Below are positions 2,339 through 41,879 of a stretch of DNA of 64,000 nt, in pieces (position 1 is the first letter of the stretch; the number at the start of each line of letters is the position of its first letter). Source of the DNA: Winogradskyella litoriviva. GTDB lineage: Bacteria > Bacteroidota > Bacteroidia > Flavobacteriales > Flavobacteriaceae. The position numbers and the translations under genes were made by a program. The notes beneath the pieces are model-generated. The model was not told the DNA's origin and did no database searches. It was given only the letters and a program-made list of their open reading frames with translations. Location of the stretch: positions 62,001-126,000 of the forward strand of contig NZ_JABRWQ010000007.1 in assembly GCF_013249065.1 (NCBI RefSeq), read 5' to 3'.

Positions 2339-4885
2339 TTACCCACATTTAGAATAGCCACAGCTTTTACATTTTAAACAACCTTCTTCAAAAATTAAAC
2401 CTTCAGGATCACCACAATTGGTACACTTTTTATCTATTGCTTCGGTTCCTTCTGGCACAAAACGTTTTAAAGCTCTAGCTACACCATTTTTCCATGTATT
2501 AATATGATCATCGTATAGATTTAAATTCTGAATTAAATCTACCACATACGGAATTGGCATGCCATGACGCAACACACCAGAAATCAATTTTGCGTAGTTC
2601 CAAAATTCTTTATTAAACGAGCGCGATAAGCCTTCTATAGTAATTTTATAGCCTTCGCTATCTATGTATTGAAAATCATAGCGCGAAGAACCATCTTCAT
2701 TTCGGCCCTTTATTACCCAACCTTTTTCTACCCATTGAGGTAAATTAAAGGCATCTTTCATTTTACCTGTAAAAATCTCATATGGTCGTCCATCTACCAA
2801 ACCTATAACAGCAAGCCATTTTTCAGATTCATTATGAAAACGAACCAATTCTGCTTCAATTCTATCAGGACGCTTGGCAATTAAAGTTTCAGTAGACGTT
2901 ACTGTTTCTTCTTTCGTTTTTTCATTTGTTGAAATTAAAACACCACTTCTTGATCCATCTCTATATACTGTAATTCCTTTTAATCCTTTTTTCCAAGAAT
3001 CTACATAAATATCACCTACCAAATCTACGGTAACATCAGAAGCCAAGTTAATGGTTGAACTAATAGAATGCGTAGTATATTTTTGAACTAAAGCTTGCAT
3101 TTCTACACGCTTTTTCCAGTCGATTTCTGGTGCTGTGGCTCCAGCATACGGACTGTCTGCTATTTCAGTTTTACCAGTTGTATTCATCCAAGTTTCATAC
3201 TTTTTATGATACACGGTAAATTCTTCAAAGCCATCTCCTAAATCATCAATAAAATCAACTTTTGAGTTCTCATCATTAGTATTTACTTTTCTTCGTCTTA
3301 CGTAAGACAATAAAAACACAGGTTCAATACCAGAAGAGACTTGTGCCAACATACTTAATGATCCTGTAGGAGCTACAGTGCTTATAGAAATATTTCTACG
3401 TCCATGCTCCATCATTCTTTTATAAATATCGGGAAACTCCACTGCCAACATTTGAACAAATTCTGAGGTATCTTCTACATTTCTATTAAACACTTGAAAC
3501 TGACCTCTGGTGATTGCCATGTCTATACTACTATCAAATTCGGCCGTCATTTTGGTTTTCATCACTTCATCAACAACCGTTAAGGCTTCATCTGTATCAA
3601 ATTTAATTCCCAAAGCTGCAATAGCATCTGCTAAAGCGGTGAAACCTAAACCTGTCCGTCTTCCCTTTTTTCCTGTTTCTGCCAATAAATTCCAGATTTC
3701 TTTTTCCGTTCTTTTAATAAAATCTGGTTCTGGATCAGAATTAATTTTATCTAAAATTCTACCTACAGCCTCTAATTCTAAATCTACCAAATCGTCCATA
3801 AGGCGCTGTGTTTCATAGACAACTTCGTAGAATTTTTTAAAATTGAATTTTGCTTTTTTAGTAAAAGGTTGTTCAACAAAACTGAATAAATTAACCGCAA
3901 TTAAACGGCAACTGTCACCTCCTTGCATAGCTATTTCAGAACAAGGGTTGGTAGAACTATTTTTAAATTCAGGATAAACCGAAGATGTAGAATAGTGATG
4001 CTGTCTATCCCAAAAAATTAATCCTGGTTCTGCAGTATTATGAGCACACGTAATAATTTTCTCCCAAAGATCTTTAGCATCAATTTCCTTAGTGTATTTT
4101 GGGTCTTTACTTTCTATAGGCCATTGTAGAGTAAATTTAGTATCATTAACTACGGCATGCATAAATTCATCTGACAATCGAATAGAAATATTGGCTCCTG
4201 TAATTTTAGTTAAATCTTGTTTTATAGTAATAAAGTCTTCAATATCTGGATGTTTTACATCTAGCGTTAACATTAATGCGCCTCGTCTTCCGTTCTGGGC
4301 AACTTCTCGGGTTGTATTAGAAAAACGATTCATAAAAGAAACTGCTCCAGTAGTAGAACCTGCAGCATTAGAAACCAACGCGTCTTTAGGCCTTAACTCT
4401 GATAAATCTACGCCTACACCACAGCGTCTTTTAAATAATTGTGCCAGTTGCTCGTCCGTGTAACAAACGCCTCCATAAGAATCTAAAACAGATGGTACCA
4501 CAATACAATTAGACAAAGAAGCGATAACTTGATCATTACCTAAACCAAACATTACACTGCCTTGCGGAATAACATATTTAAAATCTTTAAAAAGTTTGTA
4601 AATTTTAGTTTCGTCTAACGATTTTCTTTTTTTTCCGTAAGCTGAAAGGTTATCTAAAACCGTCTGTCTTAATTCATATTTTTGCTCAACACGAGCAAAT
4701 TGTTTTGCCATGCGTAAATGCATGTCATCTGGTGATTTTTCAAGAAAATTACCTTGCCTATCCTTTAAACAATACTTGTTAATCCATGTGGTTGCAGCGA
4801 GTTCATCGTTATTAAAATAATGTAAACACTCTTCTAACACAGCGTTATAAGTATATGATTTTAAGGGCGAAACAGTTTGGCTCAT
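2339..4885 (-). CDS. nrdJ: Adenosylcobalamin-dependent (class II) ribonucleoside-diphosphate reductase
   Basis: The 848-residue enzyme makes deoxyribonucleotides with a B12-generated thiyl radical and therefore needs no oxygen, unlike class Ia RNR. Visible signatures: an N-terminal RNR helical domain; the 'SNCIVVPS' cysteine near residue 130 (one of the active-site disulfide pair); 'NPCSEIAMQ' with the radical-site cysteine at about residue 315; the barrel segment 'GLGFTALADA'; the 'APTGSLS' loop; and a C-terminal zinc-ribbon-like tail with paired cysteines (CTNC, CLKCKSC, YSKCG) that re-reduces the active site. There is no ATP-cone at the N-terminus. An FNR-like box at 4951-4964 and a TAATTTTG -7 element at 4922-4929 suggest induction when oxygen is low. 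No cobalamin riboswitch is visible in the short leader. The gene is monocistronic and ends at the hairpin 2220-2256. Confidence 0.95.
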   Translation of the reverse strand: MSQTVSPLKSYTYNAVLEECLHYFNNDELAATTWINKYCLKDRQGNFLEKSPDDMHLRMAKQFARVEQKYELRQTVLDNLSAYGKKRKSLDETKIYKLFKDFKYVIPQGSVMFGLGNDQVIASLSNCIVVPSVLDSYGGVCYTDEQLAQLFKRRCGVGVDLSELRPKDALVSNAAGSTTGAVSFMNRFSNTTREVAQNGRRGALMLTLDVKHPDIEDFITIKQDLTKITGANISIRLSDEFMHAVVNDTKFTLQWPIESKDPKYTKEIDAKDLWEKIITCAHNTAEPGLIFWDRQHHYSTSSVYPEFKNSSTNPCSEIAMQGGDSCRLIAVNLFSFVEQPFTKKAKFNFKKFYEVVYETQRLMDDLVDLELEAVGRILDKINSDPEPDFIKRTEKEIWNLLAETGKKGRRTGLGFTALADAIAALGIKFDTDEALTVVDEVMKTKMTAEFDSSIDMAITRGQFQVFNRNVEDTSEFVQMLAVEFPDIYKRMMEHGRRNISISTVAPTGSLSMLAQVSSGIEPVFLLSYVRRRKVNTNDENSKVDFIDDLGDGFEEFTVYHKKYETWMNTTGKTEIADSPYAGATAPEIDWKKRVEMQALVQKYTTHSISSTINLASDVTVDLVGDIYVDSWKKGLKGITVYRDGSRSGVLISTNEKTKEETVTSTETLIAKRPDRIEAELVRFHNESEKWLAVIGLVDGRPYEIFTGKMKDAFNLPQWVEKGWVIKGRNEDGSSRYDFQYIDSEGYKITIEGLSRSFNKEFWNYAKLISGVLRHGMPIPYVVDLIQNLNLYDDHINTWKNGVARALKRFVPEGTEAIDKKCTNCGDPEGLIFEEGCLKCKSCGYSKCG

Positions 4886-14350: not shown

Positions 14351-14744
14351 GGGGTCGACTGGTTTTGACAGCGAGATTAATTAGATGGTAAGCACGTGGT
14401 GTAATGGCATTGAAACACCTTAAAGGCTAGACCAAATTTTAAACGGCGAGAATAACTACGCTTTAGCTGCATAATCTGAATTATAGTAAGATTTCGTGCT
14501 CATTTCTACTAGGTAGAAAGGCTAAATGTCTCCAGAAAGCCTTGGTTAATGGCGTTCTTTTTTGAGGCATCGTAAATATTAACTAAGATTAGGTAGCGCT
14601 TTGATGCCTTTTCGAGATTAAAAAGCTAAGTTGTAAGTGGGTTGTCTTTAACCAGCTTGCAATCTAAAACCCAAGAAAAGAATAAACGTGTAGAAAGCCC
14701 TTTGGTTACTTGTTTGGACGAGAGTTCGATTCTCTCCGACTCCA
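14351..14744 (+). ncRNA. ssrA: tmRNA (ssrA), tag (A)GENNYALAA
   Basis: The 5' end GGGGTCG and 3' end CGACTCC pair as the alanyl acceptor stem with a G-U wobble. The 3' part holds the T-arm (GAGAGTTCGATTCTCTC). The tag frame reads GENNYALAA then TAA at 14445-14474, the usual Bacteroidota tag. CCA is not encoded (the sequence continues CAA), so it is added after transcription. tmRNA with SmpB rescues stalled ribosomes. The length (~394 nt) is normal for a one-piece tmRNA with pseudoknots. Confidence 0.95.
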
Positions 14745-14784
14745 CAACACACACATTTACTGAGTATTACACTCGGTTAAAACT

Positions 14785-35532: not shown

Positions 35533-37413
35533 ATGCTTCAACAAGATCAAGAAGTATTCAACATTTTATTAGAAGCCGTTTCTGAAGGCGTTATTATTGT
35601 TGACAACAACCAACTTATAGTGGATATTAATACTACTGCTGAATCTATATTTGGGTACGAGAAAAATGAATTAATAAATAAAAAACTAAACCTACTTATA
35701 CCTTCAAAATATCATCATAAACACAAACAACACTTTATAGATTTTATTAAAGAGGATAAAAAAAGAAGTATGGTTGATGCCATAGATATTTATGGTTTAA
35801 AAAAATCTGGTGATGTTATTAATATTGAAATAGAACTCAATCCATTTAAAATTTACGATAAGAATTATGTGATGGCACTTATTAAGGACGTTTCTGCAAT
35901 AAAAGAGACCGAAAAGAACTTAATGCTAAAAAGTAGTGCTCTGCAATCTGCAATTAATGGTATTGTAATTACAGATGCCCAAAAACCAGACAATCCTATA
36001 ATTTATTTTAATGCTGCTTTTCAAAATCTCACAGGATATTCTAGCGAAGAAATCCTTAACCATAATTGTAGATTTTTACAAGGCAAAGACAGAAATCAAG
36101 AACCGTTAAAAGAATTAAGGCAAGCCGTTAAAAAAGGGAAAAGTTGCCAAGTGACGTTACGCAACTATAAAAAAGATGGTACATTATTTTGGAATGACCT
36201 CTACATTATGCCAATTATAGATAATAAAGGTGTTGTGACTAATTTTATTGGTATTCAGAATGATGTAACGCTTAGGAAAAAAACAGAAGCTGAACGTAAC
36301 CATTTAGCAACAATTTTTGATGAATCTTTAAATGAAATTTATGTATTTGATGCCAAAACTTTAAAATTTATAAATGCTAATTATGGAGCTCAAAAGAATT
36401 TAGGTTATACAATTGAAGAGTTAAAAACTATGACTCCATTAGATCTAAAAACCGAAATACATCAAATAGAATTTAAAAAACATGTAGAAAAACTTCTTAA
36501 AAAAAACGTAGAAAAATTAGAATTTGAAAATGTTCACCAACGCAAAGATGGCACAACATATCCTGTAGAAGTACACATGCAACTCTCTAGTTTAGGAGAA
36601 AGAGATGTTATTGTTGTTATTATTTTAGATATTACAGAACGTAAAAACTATACCGAAAGACTTGAAAAGAAAGTAGAAGAACGTACAGAACAACTTAAAA
36701 TTGCACTTTCTAAAGAAAAAGAACTTAATGAACTGAAAACAAAATTTTTATCTCTGGTTTCACACGAGTTTAAAACGCCTTTAAGCGGTATATTAACCTC
36801 TTCTGTTTTATTAAGTAAATATCAACTCACCAAAGATCAAGAAAAGCGCAATAAACATATAAAAACAATATCTGACAAGGTACATTATCTAAACAATATT
36901 CTTAACGACTTTTTATCGCTAGAAAAACTAGAAACTGGTAAAATGAATTATAACTATAATCATTTTAAAATCAGTAAAGTTATAGACGAAGTAGTTTATA
37001 ACGCTAACATGCTATTAAAAAAGAACCAGAATATTAAATATCCAGATCATATAGATGACCTATCCCTTTACCAAGATGAAAAAGTTATAGAACTCATATT
37101 AACTAACTTAGTTAATAATGCTATTAAATATTCCCCAGAAGATACAGATATTACTATTACCATTGAACAAAATAACACTATTACAACTATACAAGTTATA
37201 GATAGTGGAATTGGGATTCCTTTAAATGACCAGAAACATATTTTTGAGCGTTACTTTAGAGCCGAAAATGTAATTAATACCCAAGGTACAGGTATTGGTT
37301 TAAATATTGCTAAAAACCATTTAGAAAACATAGGTGGCACTATTAGTTTTATTAGTGAAGAACAGAAAGGAACGACGTTTACTATAAAAATTCCTAATAC
37401 AGCAAATCCATGA
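35533..37413 (+). CDS. PAS-LOV-PAS sensor histidine kinase
   Basis: The 626-residue soluble kinase has no membrane segment. PAS-1 covers about 5-125. PAS-2 (about 131-250) is a LOV domain: the photoactive C179 lies in 'NCRFLQGKD', with the flavin-contacting N211 ('LRNYKKDG'), N221 ('TLFWNDL') and the signal Gln Q242 ('FIGIQNDVT') all present. PAS-3 covers about 255-372. A HisKA domain has the phosphorylated H411 in 'SLVSHEFKTPL', and HATPase boxes N, G1 and G2 follow ('NLVNNAIKYSP', 'VIDSGIGIP', 'GTGIGLNIAKNH'). It should phosphorylate the REC-CRP regulator encoded 4 bp downstream (overlapping). The combination suggests blue-light plus redox or ligand input. No transmembrane or haem motif is evident. 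Confidence 0.92.
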   Translation: MLQQDQEVFNILLEAVSEGVIIVDNNQLIVDINTTAESIFGYEKNELINKKLNLLIPSKYHHKHKQHFIDFIKEDKKRSMVDAIDIYGLKKSGDVINIEIELNPFKIYDKNYVMALIKDVSAIKETEKNLMLKSSALQSAINGIVITDAQKPDNPIIYFNAAFQNLTGYSSEEILNHNCRFLQGKDRNQEPLKELRQAVKKGKSCQVTLRNYKKDGTLFWNDLYIMPIIDNKGVVTNFIGIQNDVTLRKKTEAERNHLATIFDESLNEIYVFDAKTLKFINANYGAQKNLGYTIEELKTMTPLDLKTEIHQIEFKKHVEKLLKKNVEKLEFENVHQRKDGTTYPVEVHMQLSSLGERDVIVVIILDITERKNYTERLEKKVEERTEQLKIALSKEKELNELKTKFLSLVSHEFKTPLSGILTSSVLLSKYQLTKDQEKRNKHIKTISDKVHYLNNILNDFLSLEKLETGKMNYNYNHFKISKVIDEVVYNANMLLKKNQNIKYPDHIDDLSLYQDEKVIELILTNLVNNAIKYSPEDTDITITIEQNNTITTIQVIDSGIGIPLNDQKHIFERYFRAENVINTQGTGIGLNIAKNHLENIGGTISFISEEQKGTTFTIKIPNTANP

Positions 37414-38477
37414 AGACAATTTTAATTATTGAAGACGATAGTGTATTAAGAGACAATACTGCAGAATTATTAGAACTTTCTAACTACAAAGTTATTACTG
37501 CATCTAATGGTAAAATTGGTGTTGATATGGCAAAAAAACACAATCCAGATATTATTGTTTGTGATATAATGATGCCAGAATTAGATGGTTATGACACACT
37601 TAAAATCTTATCTAAAAATAAATCAACCAAGTATATTCCTTTTATCTTTTTATCTGCAAAAACAGAACATAGAGATGTAAGAAAAGGAATGAATTTAGGA
37701 GCCGATGATTACATCACAAAACCCTTTAGCGAAGACGAATTAATTAGCGCTATAGAAAGTAGACTTGCAAAAGCAGCCATCCTTAAAGATGCTTGGGTAA
37801 GTAAAAAAAACATTAAACAAATTAAAGAAGAAGATCCTAATGAAATAAAAACAATTAACGAATTAAAGATTTTTTTTGATGATAATGGCACTAATTTTAA
37901 ATATGAAAAAGACTGTGTTATCTACCGAGAAGGTGATCACTCTAATTTTATATATCTAATAAATAAAGGTACTGTAAAGTGCTACCAAATTGACGAGCAA
38001 GGAAAAGAACTTGTTACTGCATTATATAAAGAGGATGATTTATTTGGTTATTCTTCTTTTACAAACAATAAACCACATAAAGAAACCGCTACAGCAATTG
38101 AAGATGTAGAACTCGTTGGTGTTTCTACAATACAGTTTAATGAAATACTAAATGATAACCATCATTTGTCTATAGAGCTTATGCAATTATTGTCTGATGA
38201 TTTACTACAAATTAAAAATCAGCTGTTAGAAATGGCCTATGGATCTGTAAATAAAAAGACAGCTGGCACCATTTTAAAATTTGCAGAAAAAATTAATAGA
38301 AAACCAGAAGATCCTATTAAAATTTCTAGAAGTGATTTGGCAAGTGTTGCTGGCATTGCCACAGAAACTTTAATAAGAGCATTAACCAGTTTTAAAAAGC
38401 AAGGAATTATAACGGCTGACGGCAGAAATATTAAAGTGATAGACTTAGAAAAACTAAAAGAAATTTGTAGGTCGTAA
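37410..38477 (+). CDS. Response regulator with REC and CRP/FNR DNA-binding domains
   Basis: The protein has 355 residues. The receiver domain (1-120) has the acidic pocket D9/D10, the phosphorylated D52 ('IIVCDIMMP') and K in 'ITKPF'. A linker is followed by a cyclic-nucleotide-binding fold (about 160-275: 'IYREGDHSNFIYLINKGTVKCYQ') and a CRP-type helix-turn-helix ('SDLASVAGIATETLIRALTSFKKQGII'). In the recognition helix the E-x3-R spacing (TETLIR) matches the E209/R213 contacts of FNR to TGA. It lacks FNR's N-terminal iron-sulfur cysteines, so it cannot itself sense oxygen that way. It is the best candidate to bind the window's TGAT-N4-ATCA boxes. The gene overlaps the kinase gene by 4 bp. 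Confidence 0.9.
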   Translation: MKTILIIEDDSVLRDNTAELLELSNYKVITASNGKIGVDMAKKHNPDIIVCDIMMPELDGYDTLKILSKNKSTKYIPFIFLSAKTEHRDVRKGMNLGADDYITKPFSEDELISAIESRLAKAAILKDAWVSKKNIKQIKEEDPNEIKTINELKIFFDDNGTNFKYEKDCVIYREGDHSNFIYLINKGTVKCYQIDEQGKELVTALYKEDDLFGYSSFTNNKPHKETATAIEDVELVGVSTIQFNEILNDNHHLSIELMQLLSDDLLQIKNQLLEMAYGSVNKKTAGTILKFAEKINRKPEDPIKISRSDLASVAGIATETLIRALTSFKKQGIITADGRNIKVIDLEKLKEICRS

Positions 38478-39417: not shown

Positions 39418-39796
39418 TTCAATGTTATTTGCAAAATTTTGGGGATGGTATCTAATTATATTTTTTTTAATTTTAAGTCTCAACCCAAAACGAATAAAAC
39501 AAATATTCTCAGATCTAAACGACGAAAAATTTTTAATCCTATCTGCGTTTATTGCCATTATTATTGGCTTAATCAATATTATATTTCATAATATCTGGGA
39601 ACTTAATTATAAACTAATTATAACCTTAATCGGATGGTTGTCTTTGTTTATTGGTTTGGCATTATTTGTACTACCCAAACAAACCGTATCTTTTTTAGAA
39701 TTGGTAAATATTAAGCTTGTACAAGTCATTTACATGCTTTTATTTTTTGTAGGCCTTTATTTACTTAACACAACGTATGGCATTGTGCTTATTTAA
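39410..39796 (+). CDS. Small membrane protein co-transcribed with usp copy 1
   Basis: The 128-residue protein has four hydrophobic helices (about 8-22, 42-60, 68-88, 103-125) and short basic loops ('LNPKRIKQIFSD'). No family recognised. The start codon lies inside the last codons of the Usp gene, so translation is coupled. It could anchor the Usp protein or sense membrane state, but that is inference from the operon alone. Confidence 0.55.
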   Translation: MDNSMLFAKFWGWYLIIFFLILSLNPKRIKQIFSDLNDEKFLILSAFIAIIIGLINIIFHNIWELNYKLIITLIGWLSLFIGLALFVLPKQTVSFLELVNIKLVQVIYMLLFFVGLYLLNTTYGIVLI

Positions 39797-39813: not shown

Positions 39814-39827
39814 CTGATATATATCAG
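39814..39827 (+). promoter_or_regulatory. FNR-like box of a predicted small RNA
   Basis: CTGATATATATCAG. The -7 element TATTTTTA (39850-39857) is centred exactly 33 bp downstream. No credible reading frame follows: the next 90 bases lead to an intrinsic terminator at 39908-39946. Confidence 0.7.
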
Positions 39828-39861
39828 TGACAGTATCTAATTATGTCTTTATTTTTATCAC

Positions 39862-39946
39862 ATCTGATTCAAAGAAATTAAAATTTTCTTTAAAAATGCT
39901 ATTAATCAAAAAAGAGAGTCGTAGAATAAAACTCGACTCTCTTTTT
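39862..39946 (+). ncRNA. Predicted ~85-nt FNR-box-driven small RNA
   Basis: An FNR-like box and -7 element place a start site at about 39862, and a strong terminator ends at 39946. This makes an ~85-nt transcript without a usable ORF. The 5' part is A/T-rich and unstructured by eye (a possible seed), and the 3' end is the hairpin. Exact ends are estimates. A GTG-started 64-codon frame that overlaps the box and runs past the terminator is not credible. It is an attractive candidate for a low-oxygen small RNA. Confidence 0.55.
39908..39946 (+). terminator. Intrinsic terminator (small RNA 1), nearly bidirectional
   Basis: The stem GAGAGTCG / CGACTCTC, flanked by A6 and T5 runs, closes a 12-base loop. 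The A-run before and T-run after make it work in both directions. Confidence 0.8.
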
Positions 39947-39982
39947 AGTAAAAATCAATTAATATCATATTATTTTCAAAAA

Positions 39983-39996
39983 CTGATATCCATCAT
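39983..39996 (+). promoter_or_regulatory. FNR-like box at the head of the tandem RNA-repeat array
   Basis: CTGATATCCATCAT. The -7-like element TAATTTAG (40019-40026) is centred exactly 33 bp downstream, placing a start site at about 40030. The array of four ~183-bp hairpin units follows, with no protein gene for 1 kb. Confidence 0.65.
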
Positions 39997-40029
39997 TTAC
40001 AGTACTGTATTTAGATTGTAATTTAGTGA

Positions 40030-40215
40030 AACATAAAAAATGTTCTTTTCTATACTGAAAACTTAAAAATATAAAGTTTTAAATTTTTTAAAAGCTATTG
40101 TTTAATTATAATATATGGTTTTCTAATTACTTTAAGAATGAAGATTTCTTAGAGAAACCAAAAATTAAATAATAAACTAAAATGGATTTAGAACAAGAGG
40201 TTTCAACATCTTGTT
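40030..40215 (+). repeat. Array unit 1 (most diverged), hairpin AACAAGA…TCTTGTT
   Basis: The hairpin at 40192-40215 has a 7-bp stem and the loop GGTTTCAACA. It matches unit 2's terminator hairpin (same GAGGTTTC loop edge) in 19 of 24 positions. It lacks a long T-run, so it terminates weakly at best. A tiny frame of 11 codons (40182-40217, MDLEQEVSTSC) overlaps it and is probably coincidental. Confidence 0.5.
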
Positions 40216-40402
40216 AATTTAAAACTTGCAGATTTTGCATTGTAAGATGTAAAGTCTAACGCAGAAGTATTTAAAATTAAAATTTTGCTTAAATGTATTT
40301 TTAATAAACTTTATTTATATCGTTTTATTAAGAGTTTCATATGGTTGGTTTTAAAATTGAATACTCTGAGGAAACAGGAGGTTTCGACTTCCTGTTTTTT
40401 TT
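40216..40402 (+). repeat. Array unit 2 with terminator
   Basis: The unit begins near CAGATTTT (40229) and contains ATTGAATACT at 40357-40366. It ends with the terminator hairpin AAACAGGA/TCCTGTTT and a T-run. The 5' half is alignable with unit 3. Confidence 0.6.
40372..40402 (+). terminator. Terminator of array unit 2
   Basis: The stem AAACAGGA/TCCTGTTT, extended by weaker pairs around a TTTC loop, is followed by a run of eight T. Confidence 0.8.
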
Positions 40403-40589
40403 AAAAAAATTATACAGATTTTATATTGTTAAATATTAAGTCTGCTGAGAGGCGTTTAAAAATATGATTTAGTTGTAAATACTTTCAGTTTTTCTTAAGA
40501 CCTAAAGAGTTCTTTAAACTGCTATGAAAACTAAATTATAAAATTGAACGCTTTGCGGAAACAGGAAGGTAAAACTTCCTGTTTCTTTT
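40403..40589 (+). repeat. Array unit 3 with terminator
   Basis: The unit begins near CAGATTTT (40415) and shares with unit 2 the order ATTGT, AAGTCT and GTTTAAAA-type segments over about 45 bp. ATTGAACGCT precedes the hairpin. The spacing of the shared start segments (186 bp) equals the hairpin spacing. Confidence 0.6.
40559..40589 (+). terminator. Terminator of array unit 3
   Basis: The 10-bp stem AAACAGGAAG/CTTCCTGTTT has the loop GTAAAA, then CTTTT. Confidence 0.85.
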
Positions 40590-40773
40590 ATAACACTCAT
40601 AATCTCAGAGTAAAATGGGAGAAAATTTGCCAAATAGTATTTAATTCTAAAGTTTATTTAAGGGACATTAATTATTTGAAACAAGCATAGGTTTTAATGA
40701 TTGCATAAACCAGACTATAGCATTGAATACTATTAATTTGAAACAGGAAGTTATTCGCTTCCTGTTTCTTTTT
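40590..40773 (+). repeat. Array unit 4 with terminator
   Basis: The 5' half has diverged more from units 2 and 3. ATTGAATACT precedes the hairpin, whose 10-bp stem is the same as in unit 3 with a different loop (TTATTCG). The identical stem with different loops indicates selection on the stem, not recent copying. Confidence 0.55.
40741..40773 (+). terminator. Terminator of array unit 4
   Basis: The stem AAACAGGAAG/CTTCCTGTTT with a 7-base loop is followed by CTTTTT. Confidence 0.85.
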
Positions 40774-40964
40774 GTATTAAGTTTTAATAAATTTTATTAA
40801 AAATAAGGCACAAAACACCACTACTATTACGTACTACAGCTAAACATAAGTTACAAACAAGTAGCTGTTTTACTTTCTAATTTTTAAATTTTCAATATGT
40901 AAAATTCAATTAGCCATACACAAAGACTAACTAAATAAGAGTTAATTGCGAACAAACTTTTTAC
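40774..40964. other. AT-rich gap between the RNA array and the second usp gene
   Basis: I see no gene, hairpin or repeat here apart from the promoter box at its right edge. Confidence 0.6.
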
Positions 40965-40978
40965 ATGACATATATCAT
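40965..40978 (+). promoter_or_regulatory. FNR-like box upstream of usp copy 2
   Basis: ATGACATATATCAT. The -7 element TAATTTTA (41001-41008) is centred exactly 33 bp downstream, and the ATG is at 41031. Confidence 0.8.
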
Positions 40979-41030: not shown

Positions 41031-41879
41031 ATGGAAAGCATACTTATACCAACCGATTTTTCAGAAAATGCAATGAATGCTGTTAAATATGCTTTAGAAT
41101 TTTTTAAGTATCAAAAAACAGTATTTTATTTTATGCATGCTTACCAAAATGAATTCTATGACCACGAAGAACTAGTCTCACGCGAGAAGTCTGAGGAAGT
41201 ATTAAATAAAATAAAAACCGCATCACAAAAGAATTTAGAAAAACTACTAGAAGACGTTAAAAAAATAGCGCCAAATCCTAGATATACCTATCATACTATT
41301 TCTGCAAATAACACACTTGTAGAAGAGGCAAACGCTATTGCAGATGAAAAGAATATAGATTTAATTGTAATGGGCACAAAAGGTAAATCTAACGAACGTC
41401 ACATAGTATTTGGAAGTCAAACATTCCAGGTTTTAAAATATGTACAATGTCCGGTTTTAGCAATACCAACCAATTATACTAACACACAACCTAAGCATAT
41501 TGTTTTCCCTACCAATTATTTAATTCCATATAAACGCAGAGAATTAAAACTGTTATCAGATTTAGCAAAATCTTACAGAAGTGTCATAGACGTCATATAC
41601 ATTTCAACAAGCAAAAAATTATCTATAAGACAAGAAGACAACAAAGATTTTATAAAAGATACGTTACGCAACAACACAGTGAATTTTAAAATTATAGATA
41701 GCAAAAAATTAGATGAAGCTATTAAGAATTATATCCAAGAAAACAATATTGATATGATTACTATGGTAAACACCCAACATTCATTTTTAGAGGATATGCT
41801 ATTCCCTTCGGCTATCGATAAAGTGAGTCTTGGATTAGAAATACCATTGTTAGCTATGCAAAACACAAAGCGAAATTGA
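41031..41879 (+). CDS. Universal stress protein, tandem-domain (copy 2)
   Basis: The 282-residue tandem UspA protein begins with 'ILIPTDFSENAMNAVKYALEF'-type segments. The first domain carries the ATP motif G-x2-G-x9-GS ('GTKGKSNERHIVFGSQ'); the second lacks it and begins 'HIVFPTNY' where the others have PTD(F/Y/L). It differs from the other copies in its N-terminal helix and long basic loop. It is the first gene of a head-to-tail run; copy 3 starts 25 bp after the stop without its own box. Confidence 0.92.
   Translation: MESILIPTDFSENAMNAVKYALEFFKYQKTVFYFMHAYQNEFYDHEELVSREKSEEVLNKIKTASQKNLEKLLEDVKKIAPNPRYTYHTISANNTLVEEANAIADEKNIDLIVMGTKGKSNERHIVFGSQTFQVLKYVQCPVLAIPTNYTNTQPKHIVFPTNYLIPYKRRELKLLSDLAKSYRSVIDVIYISTSKKLSIRQEDNKDFIKDTLRNNTVNFKIIDSKKLDEAIKNYIQENNIDMITMVNTQHSFLEDMLFPSAIDKVSLGLEIPLLAMQNTKRN

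Follow-up and report, generated by a model that had tools for sequence, protein, structure and literature searches.

The locus considered here carries four related hairpins in a gap without a protein gene, which raises the question of whether it encodes several small RNAs or one longer RNA, and of how either would be transcribed. It lies ahead of a universal stress protein (Usp) gene of Winogradskyella litoriviva, within the 64,000-nucleotide stretch of DNA that was analyzed (the window, whose numbering is used throughout). The original prediction, made from the sequence alone, was a tandem array of diverged small RNA units behind one FNR-like box, induced with the Usp genes. The observation of a tandem array was confirmed, with refinements, and the interpretation as a whole was partly supported. 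Related loci and genomes are cited by L and G numbers, respectively.

Four tandem units in a gap ahead of a Usp gene

The claim that no protein gene lies between 39797 and 41030 held, since the sole open reading frame of at least 60 amino acids in the gap is a mechanical one of 64 amino acids (39827-40021), and no credible protein gene is present. The gap is flanked by the gene for a 128-amino-acid membrane-like protein ending at 39796 and by the Usp gene starting at 41031. The membrane-like protein has no Pfam match at E ≤ 0.01 and is conserved between Usp genes and array in relatives. Four tandem units occupy 40031-40774 (Table 1), so that homologous RNA units stand side by side as in a tandem multicopy small RNA locus. 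Their hairpins (AACAAGAGGTTTCAACATCTTGTT in unit 1, GAAACAGGAGGTTTCGACTTCCTGTTT in unit 2, GAAACAGGAAGGTAAAACTTCCTGTTTC in unit 3, and GAAACAGGAAGTTATTCGCTTCCTGTTTC in unit 4) have the stems and the spacing of 181, 187, and 182 bp that had been described, and a direct-repeat search independently placed units 2, 3, and 4 at intervals of 187 and 182-183. The exact inverted repeat AAACAGGA-TCCTGTTT occurs in just three places in the 3.89-Mb genome, those of units 2-4, and its backward-read control occurs in none.

Table 1. Positions of the array, its signals, and neighboring features in the window
Feature	Position	Strand	Basis or score
tmRNA gene	14351-14747		130.5 bits
Histidine kinase (PAS, HisKA, HATPase domains)	35533-37413		Pfam
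Response regulator (receiver, cNMP-binding, Crp-type HTH)	37410-38477	+	Pfam
Membrane-like protein, 128 amino acids	39410-39796		
Short RNA candidate behind FNR palindrome at 39815	39815-39950		
FNR/CRP-type palindrome TGATATCCATCA	39984-39995	+	Pattern match; place relative to -7 element as in relatives
-7 element TAATTTAG; predicted start ~40031	40019-40026	+	Flavobacterial consensus TAnnTTTG
boxA-like element GTTCTTTTCTA, ~+12 of predicted RNA	40042-40052	+	Motif comparison
Unit 1, degenerate copy	40055-40222	+	31.9 bits, E 0.004 (family model); fold z -1.95
Unit 2: P1 hairpin, P2 rod, P3 hairpin with 8-T tract	40226-40403	+	110.5 bits; fold z -6.68
Unit 3: P1, P2, P3	40408-40590	+	129.6 bits; fold z -6.95
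Unit 4: P2, P3, final T-run (P1 poorly formed)	40593-40773	+	89.4 bits; fold z -5.20
FNR-type palindrome of Usp mRNA promoter, without boxA	40966-40977	+	Pattern match

Units 2, 3, and 4 have fold energies of -50.2, -54.7, and -46.0 kcal/mol, which are 5 to 7 standard deviations better than those of dinucleotide shuffles, and none of 200 shuffles was as good for any of the three. Unit 1 folds 1.95 standard deviations better than its shuffles, 7 of 200 being equally good, and its family-model score is the lowest in the array (31.9 bits versus 89-130 bits for units 2-4, searched in the own genome). It is best seen as a degenerate copy. Mean column identity over the whole length of the four units is 66%.

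A covarying family of structured RNAs

Most units, when folded singly, share a common anatomy. It opens at the 5' end with a hairpin (P1) and continues with a long rod (P2), in which a closing helix of about 11 pairs leads into a 3x3 internal loop and then into further helices. Directly behind the rod stands a hairpin (P3) with the sequence GAAACAGGAAG-loop-CTTCCTGTTTC. The P3 arms of units 2 and 3 (40371-40585) also form inverted repeats with one another over a long range, and they are paired in the fold predicted for the entire array, so a switch between local and inter-unit folds could be possible. RNAalifold applied to a first alignment of 28 rows recovered P3 alone. Seven of these rows (w1, L008b, L036b, L019d, L039b, L023b, and L040a) were dropped as degenerate, short, or badly aligned, and the first units L033a and L037a were added, giving the 23-row alignment A3, from which the covariance model R1 was built. 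The structure in R1 came from pooled single-sequence pairing probabilities trimmed by eye and therefore leans on the same sequences.

In an alignment of 63 units fitted to the structure, 89.3% of the cells pair and 49 of the 51 pairs are changed on both sides. There were 518 double-changed cells, where shuffles gave 154 ± 13 and slid partners no more than 132. The covariation score was 0.538 versus 0.241. The unfitted MAFFT alignment of 23 rows has compensatory changes in 28 of the 51 pairs and 105 double-changed cells, versus 47 ± 6 in shuffles and 33-52 with slid partners. Compensation of stem changes, which the original prediction had named as a check, is present in both alignments. The view that the units are homologous structured RNAs of one family is supported, and the earlier claim to this effect is borne out by the shared structure and by the family-model matches. 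At gathering scores, Rfam 15 matched the tmRNA alone in the whole window, and the best match to the array region at E ≤ 10 reached 29.4 bits versus a gathering score of 60. No Rfam 15 family fits the array, in line with the earlier suggestion that it might be undescribed, and no publication on it was among the matches listed by a search of full-text literature, a coverage outside which subscription papers mostly fall.

Distribution in Flavobacteriaceae

Nothing else strong was matched by R1 in its own genome, the best other place having an E of 0.09. The covariance model search that had been proposed as a check matched at least 84 of 299 evenly drawn Flavobacteriaceae genomes at E ≤ 0.01, often in tandem, and the best E was ≤ 1e-8 in at least 35 of the 299, the own genome included. 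Default search filters missed several training members (the L036 unit, one L037 unit, and two L043 units), so the family counts are lower bounds. Four or more matches were found in 13 of the 84 genomes, some being minus-strand echoes of P3; such minus-strand matches are due to the palindromic P3 and were left out of the unit counts. G157, the only further Winogradskyella genome in the sample, had no unit. Among 296 genomes of the order, eight matched at E ≤ 1e-4, all from the same family, and among 345 genomes of the class, three matched, one of them (G584) from another family. The G584 match consists of two overlapping hits on opposite strands at 40 bits and was taken as chance. Because the family, order, and class samples overlap and some genomes contain training units, the matches are not all independent.

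Relatives were drawn from 40 loci encoding a relative of the first downstream Usp. Homologous units were present at 10 of these usp loci, so that relatives carry the repeated hairpins next to usp genes as the original prediction required; carriers include Yeosuana aromativorans, Yeosuana marina, Psychroflexus aurantiacus, Confluentibacter lentus, Algibacter luteus, and Jejuia pallidilutea. The other 30 usp loci had no unit, making the array patchy. In 11 of 40 fetched regions the 128-amino-acid membrane protein and the first downstream Usp flank the array in the same orientation, as in the window, and arrays away from Usp genes were also found (for example L098, L099, L110, and L118-L120). The 47-locus set used below comprises the window, the 10 usp loci, and 36 of the 40 fetched regions; L088 (same as L036), L102 (match apparently in coding sequence), L115, and L116 were left out. 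Eight regions without a match at E ≤ 0.001 (L092, L094, L097, L100, L106, L108, L111, and L114) were kept because they have a P3-like hairpin behind an FNR palindrome. Unit number differs among genomes, by our reading from one in L096 and L108 to five in L043, which makes dose or combination models testable. P3 identity was 0.78 within versus 0.67 between arrays in 13 hand-picked arrays, a sample too selective to use. One genome (G061) has a second array cluster (L091) near another kinase/receiver-CRP pair. Several boxA-like elements are found in this cluster, and two of these follow an FNR palindrome at 57-62 nt.

One promoter motif and its candidate activator

Array leaders share the palindrome TGA[CT]NNNN[AG]TCA, and a flavobacterial -7 element lies behind it at a nearly fixed distance. 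The consensus of this element, TAnnTTTG, is placed at -12 to -5 in the excerpted text of PMC9723704. The pattern TAnnTT[TA]G followed the first palindrome within 48 nt in 34 of 46 regions, and a search over 60 nt found it near none of the 33 internal units, the starts of which were hand-listed. A separate promoter for each copy is a trait of LhrC-type loci, and the 33 downstream units do not show it. In the window, the palindrome center lies about 41.5 bp before the predicted start by hand count. This is the class II position, and the distance from the -7 element is that of an FNR/CRP-activated promoter. The claim of one FNR-like box stands for the single promoter motif heading the array; it does not for the gap, which holds two further palindromes, at 39815 and, ahead of the Usp gene, at 40966.

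The palindrome of the array would most likely be bound by the response regulator encoded upstream, a receiver-CRP protein that we regard as the candidate activator and that has a homologue inside 25 of the 40 fetched array regions. The term FNR is used here as the name of a motif and does not imply oxygen as the signal. The histidine kinase beside the regulator gene has an NCRFLQ motif, and the same motif type is found in 17 fetched relative loci. This motif is typical of LOV blue-light domains, and light may be the trigger, either in place of oxygen or together with it.

A separate short RNA candidate lies behind the palindrome at 39815, with a motif GCTATTAATCA at 39898-39908 and a hairpin and T-run at 39909-39946. 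Short units of this kind, likewise behind an FNR palindrome, are found in L011, L014, L018, L031, L038, and L089, and elsewhere the GCTATTAATCA motif follows the last unit of the array (for example in L033, L037, L043, L083, L084, L086, and L093). As a lead to the array the motif was rejected, as the traced occurrences pointed away from it. The complement pattern YTGATTAATAGC occurs 13 times in the own genome versus about 3 expected from base composition, and also in 11 relatives, with three in tandem in G200 (L241). Nine of 12 places in the own genome are in no open frame of at least 60 codons, and several follow a -7-like element or precede a terminator. The pattern may be a shared 5' end or seed of many small RNAs.

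A boxA-like element in the leader

The best conserved element of the leader is GTTCTTT, at about +10 to +20 of the predicted RNA, a boxA-like element that is not in the original prediction. The window element GTTCTTTTCTATA matches the first seven positions of the boxA consensus GYTCTTTAANA, its A-rich end being without match; this consensus is gamma-proteobacterial according to excerpts of PMC5725501. The strict form G[CT]TC[AT]TT, searched 48-85 nt after the palindrome start, was present at 36 of 55 FNR sites not assigned to Usp, a group that still includes sites heading no array, such as 39815 in the window. Thirty-five of the 36 are 57-67 nt after the palindrome start, and 500 shuffles gave a mean of 0.84 and a maximum of 5 of 55. 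None of the 17 FNR promoters of neighboring Usp mRNAs has the strict form. Assignment of sites to Usp relied on a coding pattern for the Usp start, and three secondary palindromes (L107, L094, and L098) were dropped before this split.

Counted by locus, the strict boxA form stands between promoter and RNA body in 34 of 47. Some of the 13 loci without it have near forms (GTTCATACACA in L101, GTTCTTATACA in L095, and GTTCCTTGAA in L097 and L100), and by eye L111, L112, L117, and L121 have no recognizable form. The composite of palindrome and boxA occurs once in the own genome, exactly at the array, and 34 times in 30 genomes versus 8 times for the backward pattern, some occurrences not being at arrays. 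The element is predicted to be more open than its surroundings in 30 of 34 leaders, and in all 34 the next 200 nt are free of its exact complement. It also heads RNAs resembling single units, as at the first promoter of L105. In that region (G247, 3896-4555), two successive promoters with FNR palindrome and boxA, the first ahead of the apparent single unit, lie behind a kinase gene that looks pfkB-like by eye from its translation.

The rRNA leader of the own genome reads AAAGTTCATTAACATATTGA. The 16S gene was found in 23 of 33 relatives, and in 20 of the 23 it is preceded, at about 100-250 nt, by a box of the GTTCAT or GTTCT type, mostly followed by ACATATTG; the other three have at most 113 nt of leader. 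Different rRNA operons of G056 have GTTCATTGACATATTG and GTTCTTTAACATATTG. Within the same genomes, the array form is mostly GTTCTTT versus mostly GTTCAT for the rRNA form. In rRNA leaders (for example L124, L133, L135, L137, L138, and L045), the boxA nearest to 16S often has a second GTTCAT-type box upstream of it. This second box lies behind an upstream promoter-like element, which would suit a separate box for each of the tandem rRNA promoters.

Internal hairpins

The hairpins had been read as terminators, and in the window this fits the good U-tracts of units 2-4; across relatives, the internal U-tracts are poorer. Of 80 unit ends supplied, 78 gave a hairpin, and the mean T count in ten was 5.8 for internal hairpins (n = 32) versus 7.3 for last ones (n = 46; Mann-Whitney p ~1e-5), where last means that no further unit is listed. 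Units missing from the list, for example after L083 4031-4212, place a few internal hairpins among the last ones, so the difference is diluted. Internal P3 hairpins often have broken U-tracts, such as TTTCTTAAAA, and the end of one P3 is separated from the next P1 by about 5-15 bases only. The lack of -7 elements at internal units together with the poorer internal U-tracts makes "terminators of separate small RNAs" too simple a description. Units 2 and 3 of the window have 8 T in 10, as good as the last hairpin, and may therefore end some of the transcripts; it is here that antitermination would make a difference. boxA itself is established mainly against Rho-dependent termination, not intrinsic termination.

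Proposed mechanism and alternatives

The sequence shows the RNA family and how it is structured and conserved, a single promoter motif, and a boxA-like element that neighboring Usp promoters lack; from these we infer how the array may be transcribed, activated, antiterminated, and processed. The reading that we prefer, and consider probable, if only just, is that of a polycistronic noncoding RNA that is switched on by an FNR/CRP-family activator and makes use of boxA antitermination. The activator, most likely the receiver-CRP regulator, would bind the palindrome at its class II position and turn on one promoter with a start near 40031. The nascent RNA would show the boxA-like element at about +12. 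If the analogy with CRISPR arrays and rRNA operons holds, NusB-S10 and further Nus factors would be recruited there, and a polymerase made termination-resistant by them could cross about 740 nt of untranslated RNA and the internal hairpins. The product would be a series of ~180-nt modules, each with P1, P2, and P3, later cut or partly terminated into single modules. More speculatively, these modules might be structured protein-binding RNA, a scaffold or a titrating sponge with its dose set by copy number, and might act in a stress or low-oxygen response run with the Usp proteins, not via one shared base-pairing seed.

The proposal of target diversity and dosage through base pairing is unsupported, as no conserved unpaired run was found inside the units. 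Among the 63 aligned units, paired columns carry 0.91 bits and unpaired columns 0.51, and the four unpaired columns above 1.2 bits form no seed-like run, two of them being adjacent A's at the 5' edge of an alignment that begins after the leader. The own genome has no match to Hfq or RRM_1. Together with the missing seed, this argues against one shared base-pairing seed and weakly for protein recognition of the fold. We would therefore rank a protein-binding or titrating scaffold first among possible functions, separate mRNA targets for each unit second, and a boxA decoy third.

Each of the other readings accounts for part of these data. Tandem paralogous small RNAs with their own intrinsic terminators, made as a read-through ladder from one promoter and each pairing with its own mRNAs, are rather unlikely in our judgment; GTTCTTT would then be a conserved 5' part or seed of the first RNA. 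Such RNAs would explain why every unit ends in a hairpin, several with good U-tracts including those of units 2-4, why the window units are so strongly diverged, and why GTTCTTT is predicted to be open, but they fit poorly with the missing internal promoter motifs, the often broken internal U-tracts, the lack of a conserved unpaired seed inside units, and the match of GTTCTTT to published boxA. The genome also lacks Hfq and RRM_1 matches, though pairing without these proteins is possible. We regard as quite improbable a decoy, in which an abundant stress-induced RNA would present boxA, titrate NusB-S10, and lower rRNA transcription under stress. One boxA per transcript and none in the units speaks against a decoy, as does the promoter-proximal place, which is that of rRNA leaders, however open and well conserved the element is and even though it accompanies the apparent single unit of L105.

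The position of the array just upstream of Usp genes of the same orientation, in the 11 regions noted above, would suit a long 5' leader with attenuators that control read-through into the Usp operon. This is slightly less probable still, as in 17 cases a separate FNR palindrome and -7 element lie near the start codon of the Usp gene, the last array hairpin of the window is about 250 bp from the Usp start, and some arrays are located away from Usp genes. A chance or mobile palindromic repeat without RNA function is hardly credible: AT-rich sequence and the common terminator shape of P3, which gives minus-strand matches, could produce something like it, but not the compensatory changes, the single locus in the own genome, the conserved synteny and promoter, or the near absence of matches beyond the family.

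Beyond the preferred reading of a polycistronic RNA with boxA antitermination, the wider proposal is an undescribed, family-wide class of stress-activated polycistronic structured RNA that uses the rRNA antitermination signal, in which an FNR/CRP-type two-component regulator would fire a promoter with boxA in its transcript, and Nus factors would then carry polymerase through the tandem regulatory RNA modules. We offer this proposal tentatively, as one that falls somewhat short of probable. If true, boxA on long noncoding RNA would have a third natural setting in addition to rRNA and CRISPR arrays, and the sensing of low oxygen, stress, or light would be linked with the machinery of ribosomal antitermination. 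A functional boxA would mean that antitermination by Nus factors also serves inducible regulatory-RNA arrays, beyond rRNA, CRISPR arrays, and a small number of mRNAs. The map of regulatory RNA in Flavobacteriaceae is sparse, and a conserved, strongly covarying family beside a universal stress protein operon is a concrete starting place. Judged by its sequence, we rate the locus as a multicopy structured RNA locus with an unusual transcription signal.

Comparison with known systems

The array resembles 6S-Flavo RNA (RF01685) in being a rod-like structured RNA of similar size, and identity with it was rejected, as the array is unmatched and the only 6S-Flavo of the genome, with 91.5 bits, is at another locus (C22). 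As in the excerpted descriptions of LhrC1-5 and NgncR_162/163, several homologous RNAs are found at one stress-linked locus; unlike those systems, from which it is set apart by description and not by sequence, the array has a single promoter motif, structured units of ~180 nt, and no shared seed.

Closest in lineage are the FopS and Rfp small RNAs. The FopS/GibS small RNAs of Bacteroides thetaiotaomicron are likewise a paralogous family in Bacteroidota and, in excerpts of PMC11697453, FopS are dispersed RNAs with a single-stranded 5' seed and a terminator, bound by the RRM protein RbpB. The array differs from this description in being tandem and rod-like, in a genome without an RRM_1 match. 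The Rfp small RNAs of Flavobacterium psychrophilum share the Flavobacteriaceae origin, and 18 of 45 have strong predicted structure; the excerpted text of the Rfp paper (PMC9723704), with which the array was compared by description and not by sequence, does not have the terms boxA and FNR.

Closest in logic are rRNA leaders and boxA-led CRISPR arrays. Like rRNA leaders, the array has a promoter-proximal GTTC[AT]T element on a predicted long untranslated transcript, but its core is mostly GTTCTTT versus GTTCAT, no rRNA follows, and the promoter appears to be regulated. CRISPR arrays led by boxA (Stringer et al. 2020, as cited in excerpts of PMC7862264) are also tandem noncoding arrays with one promoter and a leader boxA. 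The near-identical short repeats and unique spacers of CRISPR are not found in the array, which instead has diverged structured modules (~180 nt, 66% mean column identity) and an FNR/CRP-type promoter. The boxA of the L. pneumophila Lens CRISPR array is GTTCTTTAAAA, and its addition to a synthetic array gave about ten-fold more precursor RNA (excerpts of PMC7862264). This same element recurs in array leaders of the family described here, for example in L011, L085, L107, and L113.
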